Shown here: in pieces, positions 5,577 to 37,162 of the stretch
Position numbering within the stretch: the first letter of the stretch is position 1
Layout of the letters: the number at the start of each line of letters is the position of its first letter
IMG/VR virus record: IMGVR_UViG_3300035670_000670
Coordinates: 1-37,162 of that record
Reading direction: 5' to 3' (one strand)
DNA: 37,162 nucleotides
DNA from: a virus
Notes under the pieces: model-generated
What the model was told of the DNA's origin: nothing
Seen by the model: only the letters and a program-made list of their open reading frames with translations
Databases searched by the model: none
Program-made: the position numbers and the translations under genes

Positions 5577-6601
5577 TTAAGCAATCAACACGCCTTGGAA
5601 CTGGCTGCCCGAGCAGGTCAAGTTACCTGCCCAGCCAATCAGTTTAACAATGGCGTCTTGGTTGACCGCCTGACGCTCGCCACCGATCGGAACAAAGTTA
5701 CGATCTTTGTGGGGACGGAACATCAGGTACTTGGTGTTGAGGAACCACATATGGTTCGCGTTGCCCGAGCCGCTGTTGTACGTGCTGGAACCGATACCAC
5801 CGTCCAACACAACGTCAGACGCCATACCGGCACCGTAGTACTTCAACGACGCGAAACCCGCGCCCGCCATGCCCGAACCACTCTCGGTAATACGCTGAAT
5901 CGCTTGGAGCGACTGCAAGTAGAAACGATAGTAGTTGTTGTCGGCCACGATCAGGTCAGGCTTGTCGGTTCCACGAACCAACTGCACCGCGAGGGCATCC
6001 ATGTAGCCTTGGATGGTCGTGCTGGAGACAGCGCCCGCACCACCGCCATCAGCGGCAGCCGAGAACTTCTTGCTCTGCCAGAACGTCCACACGGCGCGGT
6101 TATGCCGCCGTAGGTACCCGTGGTCGGGTCATCCGGCACAGCAGCAGCAAGACCCGTGAGGTTCTTACCCGCGTTGCCGGTGCCGTCGCCGTACAGGTCA
6201 CCGCTGATGCGGTTGGCCAGCTGGGCTTCGGCCACTTCCATGCGACCGTCAAGAAGGTCAATGATGGCCTCCTTACCCGAGTTCTGGATCATCTCCAGAC
6301 CCGAGATGGTCACCGCAGAAGCGTACTGCGTGATGGAGAACTGCGCCGAGCTAATCGGGCTGTTCTGACCCACGTTCAGCACTTCGTAACCCGAATAGCT
6401 GTTCGTGTTGTTCGTGGTCGGATCGGTGTACATGATTTCTTGCAAAATCACGTTACCGCCCGAGAACGTCTTGACGTTCCCACGCTCTTTAAGACGACGA
6501 AGCAACGCGTTGTTGTTCGTCACGTTATCAGCAAGCTCACCGCTACGGCTCTGGATTGTGGTAGCAATGATGTCGCTGATGCTTGAGTTGGCAAATGCCA
6601 T
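5577..6601 (-). pseudogene. major capsid protein, interrupted by a one-base frameshift
   Basis: Two overlapping minus-strand frames form one capsid gene. Frame one runs from the ATG at 6601 (MAFANSSISDIIATTIQSRSG) and stays sensible through TGTYGGI. Frame two is sensible from about VWTFWQSKKFS to the stop at 5577. Adding one A/T near 6100-6101 (plus-strand GGTTATGCC read as GGTTTATGCC) gives the continuous junction GGINRAVWTFWQSKK, a very typical phage capsid sequence. The repaired product is about 341 residues, a normal length. The start has AAGGAGT upstream. A capsid gene cannot be dispensable, so a sequencing or assembly indel is far more likely than a true pseudogene. Confidence 0.85.
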
Positions 6602-13257: not shown

Positions 13258-13626
13258 TTACTTAAAACGCTCCAGCTTGTACGACAGCGCGGCGATCTCG
13301 CCGACGATCTCGTCAATGATGTTCTGCAAATCGGTGTCTTTCGGCAGGTCGCCCCGAATGCCCTTAACAAACGTCAGCAGGCTGTCGGCGTAAGCGGCTG
13401 CGTCCTTTTGCACCTTGAACCCGTCTGGGTAATCGTCCAGCGGGATGATGCCGTGATGACCCTGATACGCCTCGGCGTACTTGTCGGCCAAGTCCACGAT
13501 GTTCTCGTAGTAGTGGCCGAGTGCCTTGTGGGCGGCGTAGCTGGCGGTGTTGAGGTGCAAGTAATGAGCCGCTGTGCTGCTATGCAGCAAAACACCTACA
13601 AACTCGGCGGCATCTTTATGGCTCAT
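13258..13626 (-). CDS. ferritin/Dps-like four-helix phage protein (DUF5856-like)
   Basis: The 122-residue, fully helical protein contains HYLHLNTASYAAHKALGHYY, then ENIVDLADKYAEAYQG. These are His and Glu/Asp-spaced helices resembling the DUF5856 phage family and, more distantly, Dps/ferritin proteins. Helices at about 1-25, 28-55, 70-90 and 98-120 fit a four-helix bundle. His and Glu/Asp positions could form a metal site. Its ATG overlaps the upstream methyltransferase stop (ATGA). Function is not known; metal binding is inference. Confidence 0.55.
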   Translation of the reverse strand: MSHKDAAEFVGVLLHSSTAAHYLHLNTASYAAHKALGHYYENIVDLADKYAEAYQGHHGIIPLDDYPDGFKVQKDAAAYADSLLTFVKGIRGDLPKDTDLQNIIDEIVGEIAALSYKLERFK

Positions 13627-14234
13627 TGGGCGGTCAACCGTAAGTTGGGCAGGATGATTGCAGTCGTAGCATCACCCACGGCAAAACGCTCTGTCAACTG
13701 TCGCTCTGGCGGGTAAACCAATATCCGATTTGACAGGTTTATCTGCATAGCGTTCCAGACGCCTTTTTCTATGCCCTCAAAGTCATCAAGGGTAATAATG
13801 GTGTCGGGGTGGAACAGCCGCTCAAGGTGCGCCCGATCATTGGGTTGTAGCCGACCGTCTATGTGCAGGTGGTCTATCGTTCCATCCAGTTTGGCGAGCA
13901 TTTCGGTGCTGCTGCTGTGGTACTGCGTGACGTTCGCGTAAATCGGCAGCTTGAAGTTGTGCGTCATGTCGCAGGTATGCACCTCGGTGTCGCCCCGAGC
14001 CAGCACAAACGTGGATTTGCCGATATAAGTGCCGATTTCCACCACGCGCTTCGGTCGGAAATACCGCTTTACCGCCCACAGGGCAATGAGGCTAGCGTTG
14101 TTGGTGGAACCTGTCTGGCGGTCAGGGTCTAGCGCCTCAAGGTCGCTGATCCGCTGCCACGGTAAATCTTCCAATCCGTCAAACAGCGTGTCCCAAATAG
14201 CCCTAGACAGTCGCTTACGGTTTAAGTTCAGCAT
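13623..14234 (-). CDS. class I SAM-dependent methyltransferase (Methyltransf_24-like)
   Basis: This 203-residue protein has the SAM-binding motif I VVEIGTYIGKST at about residues 64-75. An acidic strand VHTCDM follows, then DHLHIDGRLQPNDRAHLERL and IITLDDFEG, as in the CmcI/TylF/Methyltransf_24 group, which often methylates sugars. AGAGGA stands upstream of its ATG. Its start codon is only 11 bases from the divergent start of the plus-strand glycosyltransferase gene. It feeds directly into the ferritin-like gene. The substrate is unknown; the adjacent glycosyltransferase makes a glycan plausible. Confidence 0.7.
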   Translation of the reverse strand: MLNLNRKRLSRAIWDTLFDGLEDLPWQRISDLEALDPDRQTGSTNNASLIALWAVKRYFRPKRVVEIGTYIGKSTFVLARGDTEVHTCDMTHNFKLPIYANVTQYHSSSTEMLAKLDGTIDHLHIDGRLQPNDRAHLERLFHPDTIITLDDFEGIEKGVWNAMQINLSNRILVYPPERQLTERFAVGDATTAIILPNLRLTAQ

Positions 14235-14245
14235 ATATTCCTCTT

Positions 14246-14902
14246 ATGCGCTTCGTATTTTTCCACGTAGGCGACGACATCGCCCTGCCGACCAAAATGG
14301 TTGCGTCCATCCATGCCCACAACTCGGGCGCGGAGGTGATCCAAGTCACAGACGGTCACACCCCAACTATCCCGGGCGTCACCACCACCGTTGTGATGGA
14401 CATTGACCGCCGTCACCTGATGCTCGCCAGAACGGCGGCGTGGGCGAATTTGGGGCTGGATAGCCCTGCCCTCTACCTTGACACCGACATGATCGTAAAC
14501 GCCCCCATAGACGTTGACGGCGCGTTGGGGAAGGGCGTTGTGGCGATGTGTCGGCGTACCTTCAACCGGGACGCGATCTTTAACACCCACCAGCGCGGCC
14601 AAGACTTTTCTGAGTACGCCGGTAAAACGCTGGACGAGCTGTACCCCTATGTTGGGTGCTGCACCATCACGGCTGATTGGGGTGTGTGGGCAGACCTGAC
14701 CGAAATGTACATGGCGCTGCCCGACAAATTCAAAGTCTGGTACGGCGACCAAGAGGTTCTGCGGGAATACGCCAAACGGCACAAGGTCGTTGACCTGCCC
14801 GAGCATGAGTGGGCGTGTTTGCCAGAGCATATGGCTGGTCGCCCGCTGATTACGCACTACAAGGGTCAACGCAAAGCCCTCATCTTGAATGCTCCGGCCT
14901 GA
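14246..14902 (+). CDS. GT-A-type glycosyltransferase-like protein, lone plus-strand gene
   Basis: The 218-residue protein opens MRFVFFHVGDDIALPTKMVA and has a hydrophobic strand ending in a DXD motif (ALYLDTDMIVN), the metal and nucleotide-sugar site of GT-A enzymes. Later motifs are AELYPYVGCCTI-like and a C-terminal HYKGQRK. This layout is close to GT8-like transferases. It is the only plus-strand gene within the leftward arm. It diverges from the methyltransferase gene with 11 bases between starts and overlaps the VRR-NUC gene end-to-end by 23 bases. No Shine-Dalgarno is visible before its ATG. It looks like an inserted accessory gene. Confidence 0.65.
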   Translation: MRFVFFHVGDDIALPTKMVASIHAHNSGAEVIQVTDGHTPTIPGVTTTVVMDIDRRHLMLARTAAWANLGLDSPALYLDTDMIVNAPIDVDGALGKGVVAMCRRTFNRDAIFNTHQRGQDFSEYAGKTLDELYPYVGCCTITADWGVWADLTEMYMALPDKFKVWYGDQEVLREYAKRHKVVDLPEHEWACLPEHMAGRPLITHYKGQRKALILNAPA

Positions 14903-15203
14903 TCGCTTCGGTATAACGCTCGTATAGCTCTTTTACGGCGTCTTGGGGGTCACGGGCGACGTAATACTCGCCCCTAGCCTCAAATGTCTTTCGGAACGCC
15001 TCCTGCGCTTCCCGCAGCTTTCCCTTTGGCATCTTGATTTCCACCCAACATACCCACGGTGTCCCGTCCGGGAGTGGGCGGGTAACGAGTTTGTCGGGAA
15101 TGCCCTGCCCTGCCTTGCCAAAGTCGGTGACCGTGAACCCGGCTTTGCGTAGCGCCTCGGTGATGATGGCGTCGTTCCCGTCACGGCGGGCGGCGTGTCT
15201 CAT
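14880..15203 (-). CDS. VRR-NUC-type nuclease
   Basis: This is a 107-residue protein with the PD-(D/E)XK layout of VRR-NUC domains. It has GIPDKLVTRPLPDG (the catalytic Asp), then WVCWVEIKMPKGKL (Glu-x-Lys), then REAQEAFRKTFEARG, in which the conserved Gln lies. Phage VRR-NUC proteins are small nucleases thought to act on branched or structured DNA in recombination or packaging. The start overlaps the methyltransferase stop as ATGA. Its 3' end overlaps the convergent glycosyltransferase gene. Along with the early ERF, SSB-like and NinB-like genes it completes a recombination set, though it is carried in the other arm. Confidence 0.8.
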   Translation of the reverse strand: MRHAARRDGNDAIITEALRKAGFTVTDFGKAGQGIPDKLVTRPLPDGTPWVCWVEIKMPKGKLREAQEAFRKTFEARGEYYVARDPQDAVKELYERYTEAIRPEHSR

Positions 15204-15919
15204 CGGACTTTTAGCACCAACAGCTGCGGGTGGTACTGCATTTCCGAAAACACCCCGTTTTTGCTGTCTATCATCCGAGCGAGGGCGTCAAACAGGTTGG
15301 TAATCTGTTTGCGGTCGTTCGGCAGGGTGCTGTTGAAATTCCTGCGGAACCGCGCCGCGTAACCTTCATCGTAGGTGCAGGCCAAGTCCTCAATGACGTA
15401 GTAGCCGCCCGAGCGCACCCATGTCTGGCAATGCACCAGCGTATCCACAATGTCCTCGGCCATGTGGCTGCCGTCGTCCACGAATAGGTCTAGGGACTTG
15501 GCAGGCATGGAGTACCGACGCGGGTCAGCGATCTGGATACGCACGTTGTCCAAGTCTTTGCAGAGGTTCGCGCACTCGGGGCGTATGTCAAAACCCCATA
15601 TCACCGACGTAGGGCAGTAATTAGCCCACATACGCAATGAGGCACCACACGCCACGCCTACCTCTGCGATCTGCAACGGAAAGCGTTTGTGCGGGGCAAG
15701 TTCCGCAATCAGCTTTTCGTAGACCTTGGTGTAGCCGTGCTTGATGTTGCCTTTGTCGCTGCCGTACAGGTCGGCAAGCCCCGTGAGCGAGACTTCCGCA
15801 AGGTCAATTTCACCCGTTTCCGGCGTGTATTCTTCGGGCGTGACGGTATCAAGGTAACGGCGAACGCCTCCTCGTTCCTTGCCTCGTTGATCAGCCTGCC
15901 TAGCCATATTCGCCACCAT
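15200..15919 (-). CDS. SAM-dependent methyltransferase, macrocin-O-methyltransferase-like
   Basis: The 239-residue frame contains DLYGSDKGNIKHGYTKVYEK, then LQIAEVGVACGASLRMWANY (motif I), FDIRPECANL (acidic strand), then DLFVDDGSHMAEDIV. This series is typical of sugar O-methyltransferases related to antibiotic-pathway enzymes, and phages and cyanobacteria carry many. The start is ambiguous: ATG at 15919, with AAGGG about 11 bases upstream, or ATG at 15907, with GGTGG 7 bases upstream. It lies after a small unknown gene and before the nuclease gene. The substrate is unknown. Confidence 0.75.
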   Translation of the reverse strand: MVANMARQADQRGKERGGVRRYLDTVTPEEYTPETGEIDLAEVSLTGLADLYGSDKGNIKHGYTKVYEKLIAELAPHKRFPLQIAEVGVACGASLRMWANYCPTSVIWGFDIRPECANLCKDLDNVRIQIADPRRYSMPAKSLDLFVDDGSHMAEDIVDTLVHCQTWVRSGGYYVIEDLACTYDEGYAARFRRNFNSTLPNDRKQITNLFDALARMIDSKNGVFSEMQYHPQLLVLKVR

Positions 15920-15925
15920 ATCTGG

Positions 15926-16255
15926 TTACCCTTGTACTTGTTTAGCGGGGGAATTCGCACGTTTCAGTTTCTCCACAGCCCTCTCGCCCCACAACTGCCT
16001 GACCAAGCCAATCGCGTCACGATCAGACAAGACAGCAGCAGGGCCAGCCTCACGCACTAATTCAGCCACTCGGTCACGGTTTACGTCTATTCCACGGGCT
16101 AACTGTGCGTCGTAGAAACGTAAGCGGTTCAGCGGGGATTGTCGTACCAAGTCATTCCACGTTGCTGCGTTGGAGTGCAACTGGTGTTCTAGGTTGTGAC
16201 TGGGTTTAGCCTTTTCAGTATTTACAGTCGGAGAGTAAGTGTATTCATCACCCAT
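15926..16255 (-). CDS. unknown protein, first long gene of the leftward arm after the repressor
   Basis: This 109-residue protein starts MGDEYTYSPTVNTEKAKPSH and has a helical second half (DRVAELVREAGPAAVLSDRD, then IGLVRQLWGERAVEKLKRA). No motif is recognised; composition and length give no clear functional hint. It is separated by about 390 bases from the repressor gene upstream and by six bases from the methyltransferase start downstream. The frame looks real because it keeps normal amino-acid composition throughout and tiles with its neighbours. Confidence 0.55.
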   Translation of the reverse strand: MGDEYTYSPTVNTEKAKPSHNLEHQLHSNAATWNDLVRQSPLNRLRFYDAQLARGIDVNRDRVAELVREAGPAAVLSDRDAIGLVRQLWGERAVEKLKRANSPAKQVQG

Positions 16256-16509
16256 GTATCACCTATAGACCCTGATGACTGATGGTGATTCCGCACGGAG
16301 TTTTAGACGGATTGCGCCTAACTCGGGATCGTGCGGAATTGATGACTGACGGAGCCATCCGCTGCGGGCTACTTTTGCCGAGTTTCCCCGGTGCCATTCA
16401 CGCTTCCCCGCTTCACGCCGCGTGTCTAGAGGCTGGCCGCCCCGGTCTAGATTTAAGCCCGTTCTGCGCGTGGTTTCCCCGTCCAGAAAGGCCGAGGCGT
16501 AGAGGTAGG

Positions 16510-16537
16510 TTGACAGGGGGATTAACCGAGCTAAACT
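16510..16537 (+). promoter_or_regulatory. candidate sigma70 promoter for a small RNA
   Basis: TTGACA at 16510-16515 is a perfect -35 box. TAAACT at 16532-16537 follows after a 16-base spacer. The spacer carries TTAAC at 16522-16526, the same half-site as the operator candidates at the divergence point, though its partner half (CTAAA) is poor. Transcription would start near 16544. Confidence 0.4.
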
Positions 16538-16543
16538 ACTGCT

Positions 16544-16621
16544 ACGCCGAACTGCAACCCGAGCGTATAGGCAGCCAGCCTGCCGCGTCAAGCCCCCGCG
16601 CTTCCCCGCCGGGGGTTTGTC
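16544..16621 (+). ncRNA. candidate small RNA ending in a hairpin terminator
   Basis: Between the promoter at 16510-16537 and the hairpin at 16590-16618 lies about 75 bases that encode no sensible protein. The predicted RNA would contain one small stem (GGCAG/CTGCC) and the terminator stem. It runs opposite to the leftward arm, just downstream of the repressor gene, and so would be antisense to repressor-arm read-through. Placement and size recall the lambda OOP RNA, but this is analogy only. Confidence 0.3.
16590..16620 (+). terminator. GC-rich hairpin, candidate intrinsic terminator
   Basis: CCCCCG at 16593-16598 pairs with CGGGGG at 16610-16615, and flanking A, A, G pair with T, T, T (one G-T wobble) to give a nine-base stem with an 11-base loop. 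It is followed on the plus strand by TTTGTCGTTT. The T-run is short and broken, so strength is uncertain. On the minus strand the hairpin lacks a T-run. Confidence 0.45.
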
Positions 16622-16644
16622 GTTTCTGGCGTCCGTAAAACGCA

Positions 16645-16812
16645 TTAGCGCCCTTGTGGGGGCTTTACCTGCCCTGCCTTGTACTGCCACAGCCTTGCCT
16701 GCGGGATGCGCCCGTTGCGTATCCACCGGGATACAGCTGGGGGGCTAACCTTGAACGCCCGAGCTATGCCAGCCGGGGAGCCAAACTTCTTGAGTGCCTG
16801 CTGAATGTCCAT
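16645..16812 (-). CDS. Cro/CI-type helix-turn-helix repressor, 55 residues
   Basis: From ATG (16810-16812) to TAA (16645-16647) this encodes a 55-residue protein: MDIQQALKKFGSPA, then GIARAFKVSPPAVSRWIR, then NGRIPQARLWQYKAGQ. The central segment is a textbook helix-turn-helix (Gly-Ile-Ala-x-x-Phe-x-Val-Ser-Pro-x-Ala-Val-Ser-x-Trp), and the IP-x-x-R-x-W-Q tail matches small Cro/YdaS-like regulators. It is too short for many gene callers, and frames on both strands overlap it. It faces away from the early operon across a 101-base promoter region. A -10 ending seven bases before the ATG suggests a leaderless message. Confidence 0.85.
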   Translation of the reverse strand: MDIQQALKKFGSPAGIARAFKVSPPAVSRWIRNGRIPQARLWQYKAGQVKPPQGR

Positions 16813-16818
16813 GCTGGC

Positions 16819-16847
16819 AGATTAACCGTCGTTACTTTTTTTATCAA
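16819..16847 (-). promoter_or_regulatory. candidate leftward promoter for the repressor gene
   Basis: On the minus strand TTGATA (plus 16842-16847) and TAATCT (plus 16819-16824) are separated by exactly 17 bases. The expected start point is at or one base before the ATG, so the message would be leaderless. The -35 is strong (5/6) and the -10 weak (3/6), as expected for a regulated promoter. An operator-like inverted repeat covers the -10 region. Confidence 0.45.
16822..16835. promoter_or_regulatory. operator-like inverted repeat A
   Basis: TTAAC-CGTC-GTTAC is a five-base inverted repeat with a four-base centre and one mismatch (final C for A). It overlaps the -10 of the leftward promoter and so could give autoregulation by the Cro-like protein. 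It shares its form with the repeats at 16866-16879 and 17162-17175. Confidence 0.5.
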
Positions 16848-16853
16848 TGGGGC

Positions 16854-16882
16854 TTGACATGGCTTTTAACTTGTGTTAATAT
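16854..16882 (+). promoter_or_regulatory. rightward early promoter 1
   Basis: TTGACA (16854-16859), a 17-base spacer and TAATAT (16877-16882) form a strong sigma70-like promoter. It stands 31 bases before the ATG of the first early gene and faces away from the repressor gene. The spacer and -10 are overlapped by a perfect inverted repeat (16866-16879). Confidence 0.7.
16866..16879. promoter_or_regulatory. operator-like inverted repeat B (perfect)
   Basis: TTAAC-TTGT-GTTAA is a perfect 14-base inverted repeat lying across the end of the spacer and the start of the -10 of the first rightward promoter. A repressor bound here would exclude RNA polymerase. It is the best match of the three related sites. 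Confidence 0.6.
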
Positions 16883-16913
16883 ACGCCCATACGCTAACCA
16901 CAGAGAGGTTTAT

Positions 16914-17165
16914 ATGTCGCAACTAATTCGCATCCCTTGGAAGTTTTACCTTGACCATTACGAGCGCGGGTTGCCGACGCCTAATGAGGTACGAACCACC
17001 AAGACTCATGTCTACGTCAGCGCCGACGATCCGCACCTCAATGCGTTATGGGCTGATGCCGAGTTCTACGCACACAAGTTTGGCCCCGACCTTTGCCCAT
17101 CTATCAAGGCCAGCGCCAAAGCAACCCTTACCGCCATCAACAAAGTAGTTGACGGTCTGGAATAA
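16914..17165 (+). CDS. first early gene, unknown 83-residue protein
   Basis: The ATG at 16914 follows AGAGAGG by about six bases; a longer upstream frame is rejected because it would run through the promoter. The protein reads MSQLIRIPWKFYLDHYERGL, with a helical C-terminal half (ASAKATLTAINKVVDGLE). No family is recognised. As the first gene of the early arm it could be an anti-host or regulatory protein, but nothing in the sequence shows this. A second promoter lies over its last codons. Confidence 0.65.
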   Translation: MSQLIRIPWKFYLDHYERGLPTPNEVRTTKTHVYVSADDPHLNALWADAEFYAHKFGPDLCPSIKASAKATLTAINKVVDGLE

Positions 17166-17178
17166 CCTTGGTTAATAT
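17149..17178 (+). promoter_or_regulatory. rightward early promoter 2
   Basis: TTGACG (17149-17154), an 18-base spacer and TAATAT (17173-17178) form a second promoter at the end of the first early gene. The block GGTTAATATAC-CCC repeats the -10 block of promoter 1 (GTTAATATACGCCC), so the two may share ancestry. An operator-like repeat overlaps the -10. Confidence 0.55.
17162..17175. promoter_or_regulatory. operator-like inverted repeat C
   Basis: ATAAC-CTTG-GTTAA has the same five-four-five form with one mismatch at the outer base. It overlaps the -10 of promoter 2 exactly as site B overlaps that of promoter 1. The shared position relative to two promoters argues against chance. Confidence 0.5.
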
Positions 17179-17215
17179 ACCCCTCGTTGACAAACACAAC
17201 ACAGGAGCAACAGAT

Positions 17216-17479
17216 ATGCGTGACAAGTATTCAGCCCTCGGCGACTTCTACGCCCTCGGCAACAAGTTCCAAGTTGACGTTGAGTATTCGCAGGACATGG
17301 ATAACTCCGTGTTCGTGGAGAAAGCCACGATCATTGGCATTTACTTGGACAACGATAAGTACGCCACCGCGCTCAACCACGACATCAAGCTAGACCTTTG
17401 CGATCTGACCGAGGGCGAGGAATTTACCCTCAACGAGATTGCGAGCCTTGATGCGCTGCGTAACGGGGGCATGGAATGA
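17216..17479 (+). CDS. unknown 87-residue acidic early protein
   Basis: The ATG at 17216 is preceded by AGGAG at a good distance, so I use it rather than the longer frame. The acidic protein reads MRDKYSALGDFYALGNKFQV, then VFVEKATIIGIYLDNDKYA, then LCDLTEGEEFTLNEIASLDA. It is probably a small alpha/beta domain. There is no recognised family. Its TGA overlaps the next ATG (ATGA), so it is cotranslated with the small membrane-type protein that follows. Confidence 0.65.
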   Translation: MRDKYSALGDFYALGNKFQVDVEYSQDMDNSVFVEKATIIGIYLDNDKYATALNHDIKLDLCDLTEGEEFTLNEIASLDALRNGGME

Positions 17480-17598
17480 AAAGCCCTTACCCCCAATTCA
17501 TCGCCATCGCCATCCTGTTTCTGATTGCTGCCGCCTGCGACCCTTGTGGTGACGGTGGTTGCACCGCAGCCGAGGAGCGAGCCAGCCATGCACGATGA
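17476..17598 (+). CDS. 40-residue protein with signal-peptide or membrane segment
   Basis: From ATG 17476 (overlapping the previous TGA) to TGA 17598 the product is MKSPYPQFIAIAILFLIAAA, then CDPCGDGGCTAAEERASHAR. A hydrophobic core runs over residues 8-20 with a Cys at 21, resembling a bacterial lipoprotein signal with a weak lipobox (Ala instead of Leu at -3). A Cys-rich short tail follows. It overlaps the next gene by 11 bases. It could be an outer or inner membrane-anchored peptide, such as a superinfection factor; that is speculation. Confidence 0.55.
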   Translation: MKSPYPQFIAIAILFLIAAACDPCGDGGCTAAEERASHAR

Positions 17599-17728
17599 CA
17601 TTTGGAATGACGACTTGACTTGGTGGCATCACCAAGACGAGCTGATGCAGCAGCTTGAAGAACAAGAACGCATAGACGCCTGTAACCGGGCATTGGATGA
17701 ACTCAAGGAGAATGACGATGCAGAGTGA
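17588..17728 (+). CDS. 46-residue acidic helical protein
   Basis: The frame starting MHDDIWNDDLTWWHHQDELM and continuing QQLEEQERIDACNRALDE is strongly acidic and helical. It has a Trp-Trp-His-His cluster early on. It overlaps the small membrane-type gene at its 5' end and the annealase gene by 11 bases at its 3' end, forming part of an unbroken chain of coupled genes. A longer frame from 17525 has no good ribosome site. No family is recognised. Confidence 0.5.
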   Translation: MHDDIWNDDLTWWHHQDELMQQLEEQERIDACNRALDELKENDDAE

Positions 17729-18362
17729 AACCATCGGCGCATTGGCCGCCGCGCTATCCAAGGCGCAAGCCGACATTACGGGTGCGCTGAAAGACAGCAG
17801 CAACCCGTTCTTTAAGTCCAAGTACGCCGATTTGGCATCGTGTTGGGATGCTTGCCGCAAGCAGTTAGCGGCGAACGGTTTGTCGGTGATCCAGACCACG
17901 CAGATGACCGAGCAGGGCTTGATGCTTGTCACCACGCTCGCTCACAGCAGCGGGGAGTGGATTGCAGGGCAGATGCCGGTGCTGACCAAGGACAACAGCC
18001 CACAGGGTCAGGGCAGCGGTATTACCTACGCTCGTCGCTATGCCCTCGCAGCCATCGTTGGGTTGGCGCAGATTGACGACGATGCAGAGGCTGCTCAAGG
18101 CCGAGCGTTTACGAACGACCCGCGTGGCGATCTGGGTAAGAAGTTTGACCAGACCAAGCGTGACCAGTTCGTGCAGCAGTTTCGTGGCGCGTTTGACCTA
18201 GACGCCGAGGAGAAAGACATAGCCCTTGCCGTGTTGGCTGTGCATGAGGCGCTGAATCCTGACCATGACCTGTATATCGCCGTGGCAGATGTGCTGACGG
18301 CAAAGGAACGGTCAGCGATCAAGAAGTACATTCAAATGGCAAAGGAGCAGAACCGTGGATAA
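17718..18362 (+). CDS. erf: ERF-family single-strand annealing recombinase
   Basis: AAGGAG at 17705-17710 is seven bases before the ATG at 17718, which I prefer to the ATG at 17712 one base after the site. The 214-residue product has LSKAQADITGALKDSSNPFF, KSKYADLASCWDACRKQLA, then GLSVIQTTQMTEQGLMLVT and GSGITYARRYALAAIVGLA, the signature order of ERF proteins. These anneal complementary single strands in phage recombination and in recircularising or concatemer formation. It is followed at once by an SSB-like gene (overlap of eight bases), a natural partner. Confidence 0.88.
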   Translation: MQSETIGALAAALSKAQADITGALKDSSNPFFKSKYADLASCWDACRKQLAANGLSVIQTTQMTEQGLMLVTTLAHSSGEWIAGQMPVLTKDNSPQGQGSGITYARRYALAAIVGLAQIDDDAEAAQGRAFTNDPRGDLGKKFDQTKRDQFVQQFRGAFDLDAEEKDIALAVLAVHEALNPDHDLYIAVADVLTAKERSAIKKYIQMAKEQNRG

Positions 18363-18639
18363 GTTTGACCCAAATATGCGTGGCGTCTTGTTTAAGAACG
18401 ACAAAGGCGAGAACGCCAAGCGCCCAGACTTTCGTGGGTCGTGCGTCATTAACAACGTGGATTTCAACGTGTCGGGCTGGAAAAAGGTAAGCCAAAAGAC
18501 AGGTGACGCGTATCTGTCGCTCAAGTTTGAGGCGAAGGGCGAGGGCAAGCTGTCGCGTTCTGGCGAGCCACAACGCCAGCCGACCAAAAAGCCGCAAGTT
18601 ACAGAGGCGAATTGGGATGACCTTGACACACCTTTCTGA
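18355..18639 (+). CDS. SSB-like protein with acidic C-terminal tail
   Basis: Start is GTG at 18355. The 94-residue protein contains RGVLFKNDKGENAKRPDFRG, then VINNVDFNVSGWKKVSQKTG, then DAYLSLKFEAKGEGKL, a beta-rich small domain. A Pro/Gln/Lys linker follows, and the final residues are NWDDLDTPF. The end closely resembles the SSB tail (acidic run, then Pro-Phe) by which SSB recruits partner proteins. Sequence similarity to classical OB-fold SSBs is weak, so it may be a DUF736-type or diverged ssDNA-binding protein. Placement beside ERF supports the call. Confidence 0.6.
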   Translation: MDKFDPNMRGVLFKNDKGENAKRPDFRGSCVINNVDFNVSGWKKVSQKTGDAYLSLKFEAKGEGKLSRSGEPQRQPTKKPQVTEANWDDLDTPF

Positions 18640-19300
18640 ATTGCCGGTGTTCATCGGTTATGACAGCCGAGAGGACATTGCCTATCGCGTGGCGCGGCGC
18701 TCAATAGAGCGCCATGCCCGTAACCCGATTTACATCCAGCCGATTGACCAAGCGTACCTGCGTTCGGTCGGCGTGTACTGGCGGCCTGACGATCCGCTCT
18801 CGTCAACGCAGTTTAGTTTTACGCGCTTTCTCGTCCCGTACCTTTGCGAGTACCAAGGTTGGGCGGTGTTTCTGGACTGCGACTTCTTGGTGCGCCATGA
18901 CCTGACGCAGATATGGCGTTATGTTGATAAAAGCAAAGCGGTGTTTGCGGTACACCACGATTATCGGCCTACCGAAACCGTCAAAATGGACGGCAAGACG
19001 CAGCATCAGTATCCCCGCAAGAACTGGTCATCGTTCATGCTGTTGAATTGTAGCCATCCCGAGACTAAACGCCTGACGCCCGAAATCGTCAACACCGAAA
19101 CAGGCAAATATCTGCACCAATTCCAATGGTGCGCGGATGAATACATTGGCGAATTGCCGGTGACCTTCAATTACCTTGAGGGCTGGCACACCAAGGCTGA
19201 TGAACCCGATCCGGTGTGCGTCCATATGACCCGTGGCGGGCCGTGGTTCCCCGGTTATCAAGATGTGGAATACGCCGAGGAGTGGAAGGCGTACACATGA
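18617..19300 (+). CDS. GT-A-type glycosyltransferase-like protein in the early operon
   Basis: The ATG at 18617 lies inside the end of the SSB-like gene, with GAGG about 10 bases upstream. The 227-residue product opens LPVFIGYDSREDIAYRVARR, has the DXD-bearing strand AVFLDCDFLVRHDLTQIW, and later FMLLNCSHPETKRLTPEIV and VTFNYLEGWHTKADEPD, with CVHMTRGGPW near the end. These fit nucleotide-sugar-using GT-A enzymes. It sits among recombination genes and overlaps the PAPS-reductase-like gene as ATGA. Possible acceptors are phage DNA bases, host glycans or protein; none can be chosen from sequence. Confidence 0.65.
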   Translation: MTLTHLSELPVFIGYDSREDIAYRVARRSIERHARNPIYIQPIDQAYLRSVGVYWRPDDPLSSTQFSFTRFLVPYLCEYQGWAVFLDCDFLVRHDLTQIWRYVDKSKAVFAVHHDYRPTETVKMDGKTQHQYPRKNWSSFMLLNCSHPETKRLTPEIVNTETGKYLHQFQWCADEYIGELPVTFNYLEGWHTKADEPDPVCVHMTRGGPWFPGYQDVEYAEEWKAYT

Positions 19301-20109
19301 GACGGTTTTTATCCCTTGGCGCTGGGGTGCAGTCGTCCACGTTAGCTTTAATGATTGCCCACGGCGAGCTTGAGCCGGTGGAAGGGGCCATCTTCGCCGA
19401 TACAGGATGGGAGCCTGTGCGGGTGTACGAGTGGCTAAATTGGCTTGAGTCCGAAATACAGCGATGCCCGCACCCGTTCCCAATTTATCGGGTGTCAGAG
19501 GGCAATTTGCGCGAGGATCAAATCAAAGCCACCATCACAACTGGGCAACGATTCGCTGCCGTTCCGTGGTTCTTGAAAATGCCAAACGGCGACACGGCGA
19601 TGGGGCGGCGGCAATGCACTAGCGAGTACAAAATCAAGCCAGTCCACCGAAAACTGCGTGAATTGCTCGGTTACCAAAAAGGCGAACGCATCCACAAGGA
19701 CGCTTGCCAGCTATTGATGGGCATTTCGTTAGACGAAATTTTCCGTATGAAGCCGTCAGGACGGCAATGGTTGGTACATACATGGCCGCTGATTGACCAC
19801 CGCATGAGTCGCCGCGATTGTTTGTCGTGGATGGAAAACCGCCAGTACCCCATGCCGCCGAAATCGTCTTGTATCGGCTGTCCGTTCCATTCTGACCACG
19901 AATGGCGGTTAATCAGAAACGACCCCGAAGCGTGGGCAGACGCGATAGCGGTAGATGCTGCTATTCGGAACCCGACCAACGGCATTAAGGGACAGCAGTT
20001 TATGCACCGTTCCTGCGTTCCGCTGGCCGAGGTTGACCTGTCCACCGCAGCCGATCACGGCCAAACAGATATGTTTAACAACGAGTGTGAGGGGATGTGC
20101 GGCGTATGA
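19297..20109 (+). CDS. PAPS reductase-like / ATP-pyrophosphatase-family protein
   Basis: The ATG at 19297 overlaps the glycosyltransferase TGA; the longer frame is rejected. The 270-residue product has LSLGAGVQSSTLALM at the N-terminus, the phage variant of the adenylation P-loop (SGGxDS in other members), then GAIFADTGWEPVRVYEW, and near the C-terminus SSCIGCPFHSDHEWR with paired Cys and QFMHRSCVPL. The family includes PAPS reductases and DndC, which handle adenylated or sulfur substrates. Phage members are often annotated as PAPS reductase without biochemical proof. A role in sulfur or base chemistry is inference. Confidence 0.75.
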   Translation: MRRFLSLGAGVQSSTLALMIAHGELEPVEGAIFADTGWEPVRVYEWLNWLESEIQRCPHPFPIYRVSEGNLREDQIKATITTGQRFAAVPWFLKMPNGDTAMGRRQCTSEYKIKPVHRKLRELLGYQKGERIHKDACQLLMGISLDEIFRMKPSGRQWLVHTWPLIDHRMSRRDCLSWMENRQYPMPPKSSCIGCPFHSDHEWRLIRNDPEAWADAIAVDAAIRNPTNGIKGQQFMHRSCVPLAEVDLSTAADHGQTDMFNNECEGMCGV

Positions 20110-35200: not shown

Positions 35201-35575
35201 CGCTGCTTGCGACATATACAACTGCGCGAGTTCTTGCTGGCGCAATGCCGCTTCTGCATTCGGGTTGATGGTTTGGCGAACAGTCGGCTGCTCAATGTAA
35301 GTCGTAAACTGCTCTTGCGTTGGAGCTTCGCCAGCGTAGCCGTAGGGGTCATTAAATGCTCGGGCTTGCCACGCTTCCATCGCCTTGTTGTAAGCGTCGG
35401 TGTCAATCGTGGGCGTTTTTTCCCACGTAACGGTTTGCGTACCCGTTGGTGAGTAAATGTTCGGATTGGACATATACGCCGACTGCTTGGCGGCGGCCAA
35501 GTTGGCTTCACCCTGCTTGATGGCAAGGGTGGTGTAGTCAGGCGCTGGTGGCGGTGCTGGTGATTTTTTGCCCAT
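32231..35575 (-). CDS. large 1114-residue repetitive virion protein with S74 self-cleaving chaperone end
   Basis: The N-terminal 140 residues are Pro/Gln-rich (SPAPPPAPDYTTLAIKQGEA). Residues about 150-430 are Gly-rich repeats (GQFGQAAGGPAGVQFQGLD). Residues about 440-1000 are a helical Ala/Gln/Asn field of repeats such as ANEAQAQQFAQR and FQTGQQAQQAQNQAI. The C-terminus (about 1052-1114) is a Peptidase_S74 domain with SDRRLK, in which Ser1052 and Lys1057 have the Ser-Lys spacing of the cleaving dyad, followed by GIGIYEYDIFGERQRGVMAD. S74 domains fold fibre trimers and then cut themselves off. It may be a fibre, a spike, or an ejection protein with a fibre-type end. Confidence 0.75.
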   Translation of the reverse strand: MGKKSPAPPPAPDYTTLAIKQGEANLAAAKQSAYMSNPNIYSPTGTQTVTWEKTPTIDTDAYNKAMEAWQARAFNDPYGYAGEAPTQEQFTTYIEQPTVRQTINPNAEAALRQQELAQLYMSQAAAGAAGGLQNLGIASAFRPSGVPDLVYGALGPYDLVVTPGGWLPSRGSAGALTQGAGGSIVGDLTQAYSPSQFYNVEGLPGQMGAGQQAQGNVPIQGAMTPLSSEVYGVAGGGPSPGFVSQFDYTGPRPVTDLVGEGAFGYAQGGPAAPTIAGLNLGGVGGVGQGIGADQLQMAGGGPAGGLFGLAAGGPAGLQLGGLDTSGVQGIQGGVGQFGQAAGGPAGVQFQGLDTSNLANIQTGVGQFGQAQGGTVAGPQLRGLDTSGIGNVAGGPQAGQYGFAQQFVQGPQLQGQIDLSGIAQGPINAGTTAQQAILSRLSPQLQAERQQLQTQLINQGLRPGGEAYNAAMSAQMQKENDLLLQAAAQGISLDQAARQQGFAEQQSRAMFANQAAMQGFGAGMEQAGLYNVGLGQNFQQSLAAQQAQNQAQQQAFQQRLAGAEFGQGAELARFGAGMQTEEARNRAIAQNTQMALASGQFANEAQAQQFAQRVAAGEFGREAQLASFQTGQQAQQAQNQAIAQNTQMALATGQFANEAQAQQFAQRLAAGEFGREAQLASFQTGQSAQDAINRAIAQNFAQGQSAQQLQNQAIQQNIQNVLAAEEAQRAAQAQRFGQAVTGAEAQAGLTGQQFAMQQQAQQAQNQAIQQNLGQALDVRAAANAAQQQAFQQALQGQGFNREALLAQFGMGQQAQQMQNAAIAQNYQQSLAQREAQNQALQQIFGQNVTAQQLANAAAGQNFQQQLQAQESNLARQAQQAAQAQGQAQFYNQAMSQGQQQELARMAAYNAAQQQRFGQAMDIQAAQNAALAQNVGMDYQKLAAQNAAQQQQYNQALAQAQFRNTAAQQALAQQAAIRSMPVNEISALLSGGQVSIPQFQGYSGVTIAPPPVFQAGQAQGQFAQQNYANQVNAYNARMGLYGDIAGAAGAAIASDRRLKSNVVRVGTHPLGIGIYEYDIFGERQRGVMADEVEAVKPEAVTTHPTEGYKMVYYGML

Positions 35576-35981
35576 ACCTCGGCTCCAAGAAACGACACTT
35601 GTCAGGTGTCTGCGTCATCAAAACAATATCCCCAGAATCATGCGCGGCATCTTTAATTCGCGCTTCTTCCGAGAATCCCATCTTGCTGACCAATGCGAGC
35701 GCCCGGGTATGGTTGCTGCTGATTGGCCCTATTATCTTATCAACTCCTGCGACGTTGTACGCATAATCGTACACAGCCGCCATGTATGTTGGGGTAACCC
35801 GCTCCCACGCGATGTGGCAAACGACGGATCGCCCGTTCCAATTCTCGTAAACCGTCCCGGCAACTAGCTTGCCGTCACGCTCAAGCCCAATGGCGACCGA
35901 CCGATTAGGGTCAAACGCCCCCTCGGTCTGGGCGGTAACCCATGCCCCAACGTGGGGGCCGCTTACGATGCGCCAGCCCAT
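35538..35981 (-). CDS. GNAT-like acetyltransferase, complete right-end copy
   Basis: The complete 147-residue gene runs from the ATG at 35979-35981 to TGA at 35538-35540. It overlaps the following 1114-residue gene by 38 bases. Residues about 85-110 (DKIIGPISSNHTRALALVSK, then MGFSEEARI) carry the GNAT pattern. The upstream extension to 36014 lies within the hub gene and is rejected. It sits between the tail hub gene and the S74 protein gene, so acetylation of a virion protein, or of a host target after entry, are both possible. It pairs with the left-end copy at 1-442. Confidence 0.72.
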   Translation of the reverse strand: MGWRIVSGPHVGAWVTAQTEGAFDPNRSVAIGLERDGKLVAGTVYENWNGRSVVCHIAWERVTPTYMAAVYDYAYNVAGVDKIIGPISSNHTRALALVSKMGFSEEARIKDAAHDSGDIVLMTQTPDKCRFLEPRYGQKITSTATSA

Positions 35982-37162
35982 CCGAGTTGGTACACCACAT
36001 CGGTTGACGCCCACTCCATAGAGACGTTACGGCTGGCGCTGTTGAACACAAGGCCGCCGCAATAACCGATCCCTTGAAGTCCCACAAAGTTGTTGGTGAT
36101 GATAAGGTCTGCACCCCACACCGATTGATTCCAAAGACCCGCATCCCACAATCCGTATTGCGTGGCAACGAACGACAGCGCACCAAGGTCAGCATTGGTC
36201 TGGAAATCCACGTTGATGCCAATGTTGATAGTCGGCTGACCATTGCTGTAGATGGTCGGGCGGCCTCGGGTGAAGTATTTAATGACGCCGCGAGTCTCAA
36301 AGTAGTTAAACGCTTGCAGCGCCTGCGTGTTGATCGCTACGCCATCGTCGTTAAACCCTGTTGCGCCCGATCCGGTTGTCCAAGCCTCGGCAACGTAACC
36401 ATCACCGCCGTAATAAGGTTTGTCGTTGAGCAGCGCAAAGCAGTTAGCAGCCCATCCGGTGAACCGACACCACGCTTTGGTGATGTTGTTCATTACAAAC
36501 TGCACTTGGTTGCCCGTAGAAATAGGTACGTTGACGATGAGGGCGTTGTTGAGCGGGTTGTAGAGCAGTCCCCACCCGAAATTTGTCTTGTAAGTACGCG
36601 CTGCTGCCGCAAAAGCGCCCTGTATCTTGTCTGAAAGGGCTACTTGCGGGTCTAAACGCGAGGATTGCAGCGCAGATGCCATTGGAATCAGGCCATCTAG
36701 CGTCAAAATCAGCAAATCACCGCCGTATTTCTGCACACAACGACGGGAAATTGGCGCACCTATGATCCAAACGCCAATTAGCGCCCATGTAGAGGCGCTA
36801 GAGGGGTCGGTGCCACGATAAACGATGACTTCACCCTGATCGGTGACGAAAACAAGGTTGTCGTCAACGCCGTAGCCTGCGTCAATCGTCCACGTTGCCA
36901 TCGCAATGAGCGTACCGCCCAGATGCGCGACCGAGGATAGGTCAAGCACTTGTGCTGCACCGCCGATAGAAGCGGTCGGCAGATACCACGCTTTCAGCGT
37001 ATTTTTTTGCACAAACCACATCCGGTTTTTGAACAGCGTGGGCTGTATCAAATCCGTTGTGGTAACGCCTGTGATGGCAGGCGACGATGCGCCGTCAATG
37101 GCCGTCCATGTGCTGCCGTTATAGAGCAGGGGCTTATCAGCGCCGTTAGCGGCGTACAAATA
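35540..37162. repeat. right member of the divergent end-to-end repeat
   Basis: This is the partner of bases 1-1623. It begins in the S74 protein gene at the GNAT stop codon, covers GNAT and most of the hub gene, and ends at the window edge. In an exact terminal redundancy the copies would be identical; here they differ. Confidence 0.92.
35963..37162 (-). CDS. tail hub protein, P22 gp10-like (right-end copy, 5' end cut by window)
   Basis: The frame is open from the window edge to TAA at 35963-35965, giving the C-terminal 399 residues or so of the hub protein. It aligns without net gaps with the left-end copy (424-1623), with roughly 45 amino-acid differences in 398, by my count. Many are conservative, but several clusters change polarity (for example VSVGAQEQF against ISTGNQVQF). 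The first codons are lost at the edge. In a circular genome these would be one gene, represented twice by two haplotypes. Confidence 0.8.
   Translation of the reverse strand, partial: YLYAANGADKPLLYNGSTWTAIDGASSPAITGVTTTDLIQPTLFKNRMWFVQKNTLKAWYLPTASIGGAAQVLDLSSVAHLGGTLIAMATWTIDAGYGVDDNLVFVTDQGEVIVYRGTDPSSASTWALIGVWIIGAPISRRCVQKYGGDLLILTLDGLIPMASALQSSRLDPQVALSDKIQGAFAAAARTYKTNFGWGLLYNPLNNALIVNVPISTGNQVQFVMNNITKAWCRFTGWAANCFALLNDKPYYGGDGYVAEAWTTGSGATGFNDDGVAINTQALQAFNYFETRGVIKYFTRGRPTIYSNGQPTINIGINVDFQTNADLGALSFVATQYGLWDAGLWNQSVWGADLIITNNFVGLQGIGYCGGLVFNSASRNVSMEWASTDVVYQLGWAGAS

Follow-up and report, generated by a model that had tools for sequence, protein, structure and literature searches.

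A putative Cro-like repressor with matched operators: a probable exchangeable module of phages without visible lysogeny genes

What does a 55-residue helix-turn-helix (HTH) protein do in a phage with no visible lysogeny genes, and does it act on the three inverted repeats that lie beside its gene? The window analysed here is an entire virus record, 37,162 bases long. Its ends (1-1623 and 35540-37162) share 85.5% identity over 1,625 alignment columns, suggesting that the genome is probably circularly permuted and about 35.5 kb long, with the record spanning one full turn and its ends coming from two strains; because the ends repeat, the amidase is present in two copies. The relatives, at their longest, reach 33-38 kb, which is consistent with a genome of about 35.5 kb. 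Late genes occupy the minus strand on both flanks, and the early genes, starting at 16914, lie on the plus strand and include those for the Erf annealing protein (17697-18362) and SSB (18355-18639), a PAPS-reductase-like gene and NinB. Early gene 1 (16914-17165, +; 83 aa) has no family match and has relatives at 16 loci, and early gene 2 (17216-17479, +; 87 aa) is placed ahead of the Erf and SSB genes and others. The gene for the 55-residue protein is divergent from this operon and sits at its head. A search of phage-isolate DNA with 14800-19400 returned no match; judged by its terminase, Rhodoferax phage P26218 (45.7%) is the closest isolate, and its annotation names no Cro-like gene. On the late side, the major head protein gene (5577-6601, -) is split across frames 5951-6601 and 5577-6092, through a sequencing error, a mutation or a frameshift.

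Longer frames, among them 16259-16726 (-) and 16794-17165 (+), cover the 55-aa gene (P0001; 16645-16812, -); the original prediction had regarded them as spurious. The product of the 55-aa gene matches Pfam P22_Cro (PF14549) at 32.5 bits, against a cut-off of 30.2, and also PHROG 35 and PHROG 409, both transcription-regulator PHROGs; a first scan of viral contigs found 30 relatives, 29 of which aligned across all 55 residues. The above-cut-off match, together with full-length relatives in many viral contigs, bears out the prediction that a real HTH gene lies beneath the longer frames. A genome-contig scan of an 84,980-species set found no relatives, and among phage records there was a single weak match (36.7% identity). 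A match to the YdaS toxin family stayed below the Pfam cut-off (27.5 bits against 30). The predicted structure (mean pLDDT 83.6) contains four helices (3-10, 13-19, 24-33 and 38-45), the third of which is the predicted recognition helix (PPAVSRWIRN), and a fifth helix is not seen. Among proteins of solved structure, those closest in sequence are Cro proteins with chains of 61-79 aa, and the top Foldseek folds are N15 Cro, Xfaso 1 Cro, P22 Cro and a hybrid Cro, all with weak E-values (0.025 or above); N15 Cro, both alone and with operator DNA, aligns with a TM score of 0.67-0.69 at an E-value of only 0.025-0.027. The sequence match and, more weakly, the structural model suggest a P22/N15-type Cro fold.

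Exactly three sites in the window match TTAACNNNNGTTAA with at most one mismatch. Operator O1 (TTAACCGTCGTTAC, 16822-16835, one mismatch) lies over the -10 element of a putative repressor promoter (16819-16847, -; -35 TTGATA at 16842-16847, 17-base spacer, -10 TAATCT at 16819-16824, assigned by eye), 9 bases before the ATG. Operator O2 (TTAACTTGTGTTAA, 16866-16879), which is perfect, lies over the -10 of the putative early promoter PE1 (16854-16882, +; TTGACA at 16854-16859, 17-base spacer, TAATAT at 16877-16882), and operator O3 (ATAACCTTGGTTAA, 17162-17175, one mismatch) lies over that of the putative early promoter PE2 (17149-17178, +; TTGACG, 18-base spacer, TAATAT at 17173-17178), overlapping the final 4 bases of the 83-aa gene; both early promoters came from a scan. 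The predicted arrangement, three TTAAC-N4-GTTAA repeats each covering a promoter -10, is thus confirmed. Within the window alone the count of three is mildly significant, since shuffled windows (n = 100) held 0.46 such sites on average and 4 of the 100 reached three anywhere; at two mismatches there were 11 matches against 8.8 expected, so looser matches are uninformative. Promoter matches by themselves are likewise weak proof, as a scan of 14000-20000 gave 3 promoter-like sites and shuffles gave 3.1. It is chiefly the sites of the relatives, along with the way the three repeats cluster at -10 elements, that establish the observation as real. A fourth candidate (16522-16535, two mismatches, over a promoter-like plus-strand stretch at 16510-16537) was rejected because similar sequence stands behind another helix class (L196, L200), so that this site does not track the helix. 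A scan of viral contigs for TTAACNNNNGTTAATATAC returned 102 stretches, with L006, L097 and L125 lying on contigs that are among the relatives.

Further relatives were gathered by a profile scan of viral contigs (best 80 of 199 used), a scan from another helix class (best 80 of 92 used) and a scan from a longer relative (7 relatives), and the 153 loci were grouped by recognition helix. Keeping those whose 100 upstream bases were less than 85% alike left a non-redundant set of 58 loci, comprising 24 PAVSRW, 14 GAVSQW/GAVSHW and 20 AAVQQW/AAVQLW. An unbiased search for palindromes with any 5-base half-site and a gap of 0-10 returned TTAAC-N4-GTTAA as the best gapped palindrome for the PAVSRW loci (44 of 48 possible) and TTTAG-N4-CTAAA for the GAVSQW/GAVSHW loci (25 of 28 possible), with shuffles reaching at most 4. 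Between -620 and +420 of the gene the separation was complete, the PAVSRW, GAVSQW/GAVSHW and AAVQ classes holding 68, 0 and 0 TTAAC sites and 0, 27 and 0 TTTAG sites, respectively. Farther from the gene, own-type sites numbered 8 in 167 kb (PAVSRW) and 3 in 76 kb (GAVSQW/GAVSHW), and several of these distant sites sit at a further early promoter. In 24 whole records, tallied by reading site lists against gene positions, 33 of the 36 TTAAC sites of 11 PAVSRW records lay in the 1.2 kb that precede the gene, with 5 TTAAC sites in the remaining 13 (non-PAVSRW) records; for TTTAG, 12 of the 14 sites of six GAVSQW/GAVSHW records did so, with 5 in the remaining 18. The motif is therefore not one that recurs at random positions inside genes, and the expectation that sites with at most one mismatch would be confined to the control region held in the window and, as a tendency, in the whole records of relatives.

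Site type tracks the helix rather than overall protein likeness. With only 51% (L041) and 49% (L043) identity to P0001, two proteins still carry PAVSRW and have TTAAC sites in the same places, whereas that of L021, at 60% identity, carries the helix GAVSQW and has TTTAG sites. The two half-sites differ at positions 3 and 5, and the helices at residue 25 (P or G), residue 29 (R in one class, Q/H in the other) and residue 33. Neither residue 31 nor residue 32 is likely to be decisive, because L043 has V31 with TTAAC and L224 has R32 with TTTAG. Residue 29 would presumably touch the inner base, going by lambda Cro contacts. For the AAVQQW/AAVQLW class (20 loci) the palindrome search gave no clean palindrome; a GATAG-N4-STTGA element occurs there, in both orientations, at 18 of 20 loci and at none of the other 38, and it coincides with -10 and -35 hexamers, so it may be a promoter only. 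The relatives thus appear to hold at least two specificities and probably three.

The geometry of the control region is also shared. O1 with at most one mismatch is found in the same place at 20 of the 24 PAVSRW loci, being absent from the other 4 and from 3 of the 14 GAVSQW/GAVSHW loci; in most loci the first operator ends about 9 bases upstream of the ATG. O2 covers an early -10 at 19 of 24 PAVSRW and 10 of 14 GAVSQW/GAVSHW loci, the scan finding no such -10 at the remaining 5 and 4. No promoter function is known for the half-site that falls in the spacer, and its conservation therefore favours a protein site. O2 is perfect at 26 of 38 loci (17/24 PAVSRW, 9/14 GAVSQW/GAVSHW) and O1 at 1 of 38 (1/24 and 0/14), suggesting that repression probably reaches the early genes ahead of the repressor gene itself. 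At 48 of 58 loci the best -10 hexamer, picked per locus, ends 6-8 bases before the ATG, and Shine-Dalgarno-like words are seen at 2 of 58; this spacing and the near absence of such words suggest that the repressor mRNA is probably leaderless, and in the window it would start at the ATG or within about 2 bases of it. A CGTTG..CAAC pair on the early mRNA leader (49 of 58 loci) was considered as a hairpin and rejected, since folding in the window was no better than in shuffles.

Taking these observations together, we consider it likely, with a probability of roughly 0.8, that the 55-aa protein represses three promoters through O1-O3. We infer that it would bind, presumably as a dimer, to 14-bp palindromes of 5-4-5 design (TTAAC-N4-GTTAA), each covering the -10 of one promoter, so that bound protein would block RNA polymerase. 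The perfect O2 would be occupied first, turning off the main early promoter PE1, and O1 and O3, with one mismatch each and presumably weaker binding, would let the protein limit its own expression and govern PE2; the outcome would be early-gene shut-off at a level set by negative feedback. In relatives, protein and operators would have been replaced jointly.

Comparison of flanking DNA is consistent with such replacement. L245 (AAVQ class) matches the window at 89% identity in its early flank and at 80% in its late flank, with no match from -373 to +176 of the gene, and L022 (GAVSQW/GAVSHW class) has flanks of 84% and 81% identity with only a 70-base match between them. In L003 (PAVSRW class) the gene is 85% identical and the control DNA is unmatched, with sites still at -23, -107 and -489, so the sites appear to have been kept within an otherwise altered background. 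Immunity regions exchanged as a block are familiar from lambdoid phages, and class differences between alike flanks look like such an exchange. All three types occur in metagenome 3300037502 (L002, L024 and L255). Exchange and diversification of specificity would make most sense if other phages in the same cell were also targets of the repressor.

Adjoining the repressor gene is a conserved structured RNA of about 315 nt (16245-16561, -), a lead separate from the repressor; it is flanked by a late promoter on one side and the first late gene (16255) on the other. In an alignment of 34 loci, two-sided compensatory changes support 20 of the 48 predicted pairs, and the folding energy has a z-score of only -1.55; Rfam gave no match at gathering score and none credible below it. 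The RNA is present behind all three repressor classes, and a pattern internal to it matched at least 120 viral stretches but no genome contig. At L162, L176 and L186 another GC-rich conserved non-coding stretch replaces it downstream of the repressor gene. Within 16510-16616 (+), a promoter-like TTGACA opposes the late promoter, its complement TGTCAA being invariant at 34 of 34 loci; with a terminator-like hairpin at 16600-16616, it could yield a short transcript antisense to the late promoter.

As to the role of the repressor, the original prediction had noted that integrase, CI-like partner and partition genes were not visible. Searches of 24 records of 28-38 kb, taken without an estimate of completeness, agree with this, in that tyrosine integrase (PF00589), resolvase/serine recombinase (PF00239), ParA (PF13614) and the S24 domain of CI-like partners were each found in 0 of 24. 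The predicted Cro-like repressor with three matched operators, at its own and two early promoters, is supported; the proposed choice between lytic growth and pseudolysogeny does not follow, as shut-off of early genes in the lytic cycle fits the anatomy equally and is the plainer reading. The reading that survives best beside it shares the repression mechanism and differs in the benefit to the phage: the early operon would be fully off, unintegrated DNA would persist in a carrier state, and phages with the same operators would be excluded. The cI-like position, the autorepression, the occurrence of three types within one metagenome and the swapping of specificities between phages with 80-89% alike flanks, as expected under selection to escape a resident repressor, all speak for it; the lack of ParA, integrase and resolvase in every record and of relatives in the 84,980-species set speaks against it, and we regard it as a tentative proposal. 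A lytic podovirus said to lack integrase and repressor genes has been described with putative pseudolysogeny (PMC13299392); carrier states therefore do not require a repressor, nor does the presence of one imply such a state. In its fullest form the carrier-state proposal would be one-gene immunity in non-integrating phages, with a Cro-fold repressor in cI position and at least three heteroimmune types, the modules being swapped because unintegrated carriage or frequent co-infection selects for escape; this form, too, is speculative. A second repressor or an antirepressor elsewhere, making a conventional two-protein switch, is improbable: many genes lack a family, and 13258-13626 (-) in the late region matches the PHROG "starvation-inducible transcriptional regulator" (E 1.1e-25), but S24 is missing from all the records and HTH_3 occurs in 14 of 24, with one match each, all below cut-off and in frames of 58-68 aa, the match being the repressor gene itself in the eight records whose positions were compared. 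That the palindromes belong to a host regulator of the CRP/FNR kind (TTGAT-N4-ATCAA), whose 5-4-5 geometry they share, is very improbable, because they switch with the phage helix while adjoining genes and RNA stay alike.

Compared with known systems, the protein resembles P22 Cro and N15 Cro in its family match and its predicted HTH with recognition helix, and solved Cro proteins are nearest to it by sequence and, with weak E-values, by fold; it differs in being shorter, at 55 aa, than the nearest solved Cro chains, in a gene divergent from the early operon rather than inside it, and in the lack of a visible CI partner. The gene thus occupies the position of lambda cI, while its product is Cro-like. 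Lambda operators are arranged as triplets, whereas each promoter here has one operator, and the window has one repressor and no integrase was found; shared with the lambda switch (CI, Cro, OR) are divergent promoters with operators across them, apparent block exchange and a probably leaderless repressor mRNA, that of lambda cI having been described as leaderless (PMC9031893). A correlation between Cro recognition helix and half-site has been reported (Hall, Lefevre and Cordes, 2005, cited via PMC4997575); helix and half-site vary jointly here as well, but within one related phage group with conserved flanking genes and no lysogeny genes detected. In cluster A mycobacteriophages, superinfection immunity, including homo- and heteroimmunity, has been studied on isolates (PMC6550527), and related phages with diverged specificities are a feature in common, but for the present phages a role in immunity is hypothetical. 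A literature search that covered few subscription journals found no case of a single-repressor switch in lytic phages. The helix and half-site principle is therefore already known; what is new is the kind of phage in which it is seen and the arrangement with a single repressor.

The 55-aa protein very probably shuts off its own gene and two early promoters, and the change of sites in step with the helix among relatives marks the locus as an apparent exchangeable module in phages without sign of lysogeny genes. The locus and its relatives offer a natural experiment in protein-DNA recognition, in which a few helix residues (mainly 25 and 29) and half-site bases 3 and 5 covary over many loci, and they raise a directly testable question: what maintains and diversifies a repressor with its operators in phages where no lysogeny genes have been detected? 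Should the protein turn out to confer immunity, infections of the carrier type may be more common in such uncultured phages than their gene content would lead one to expect.
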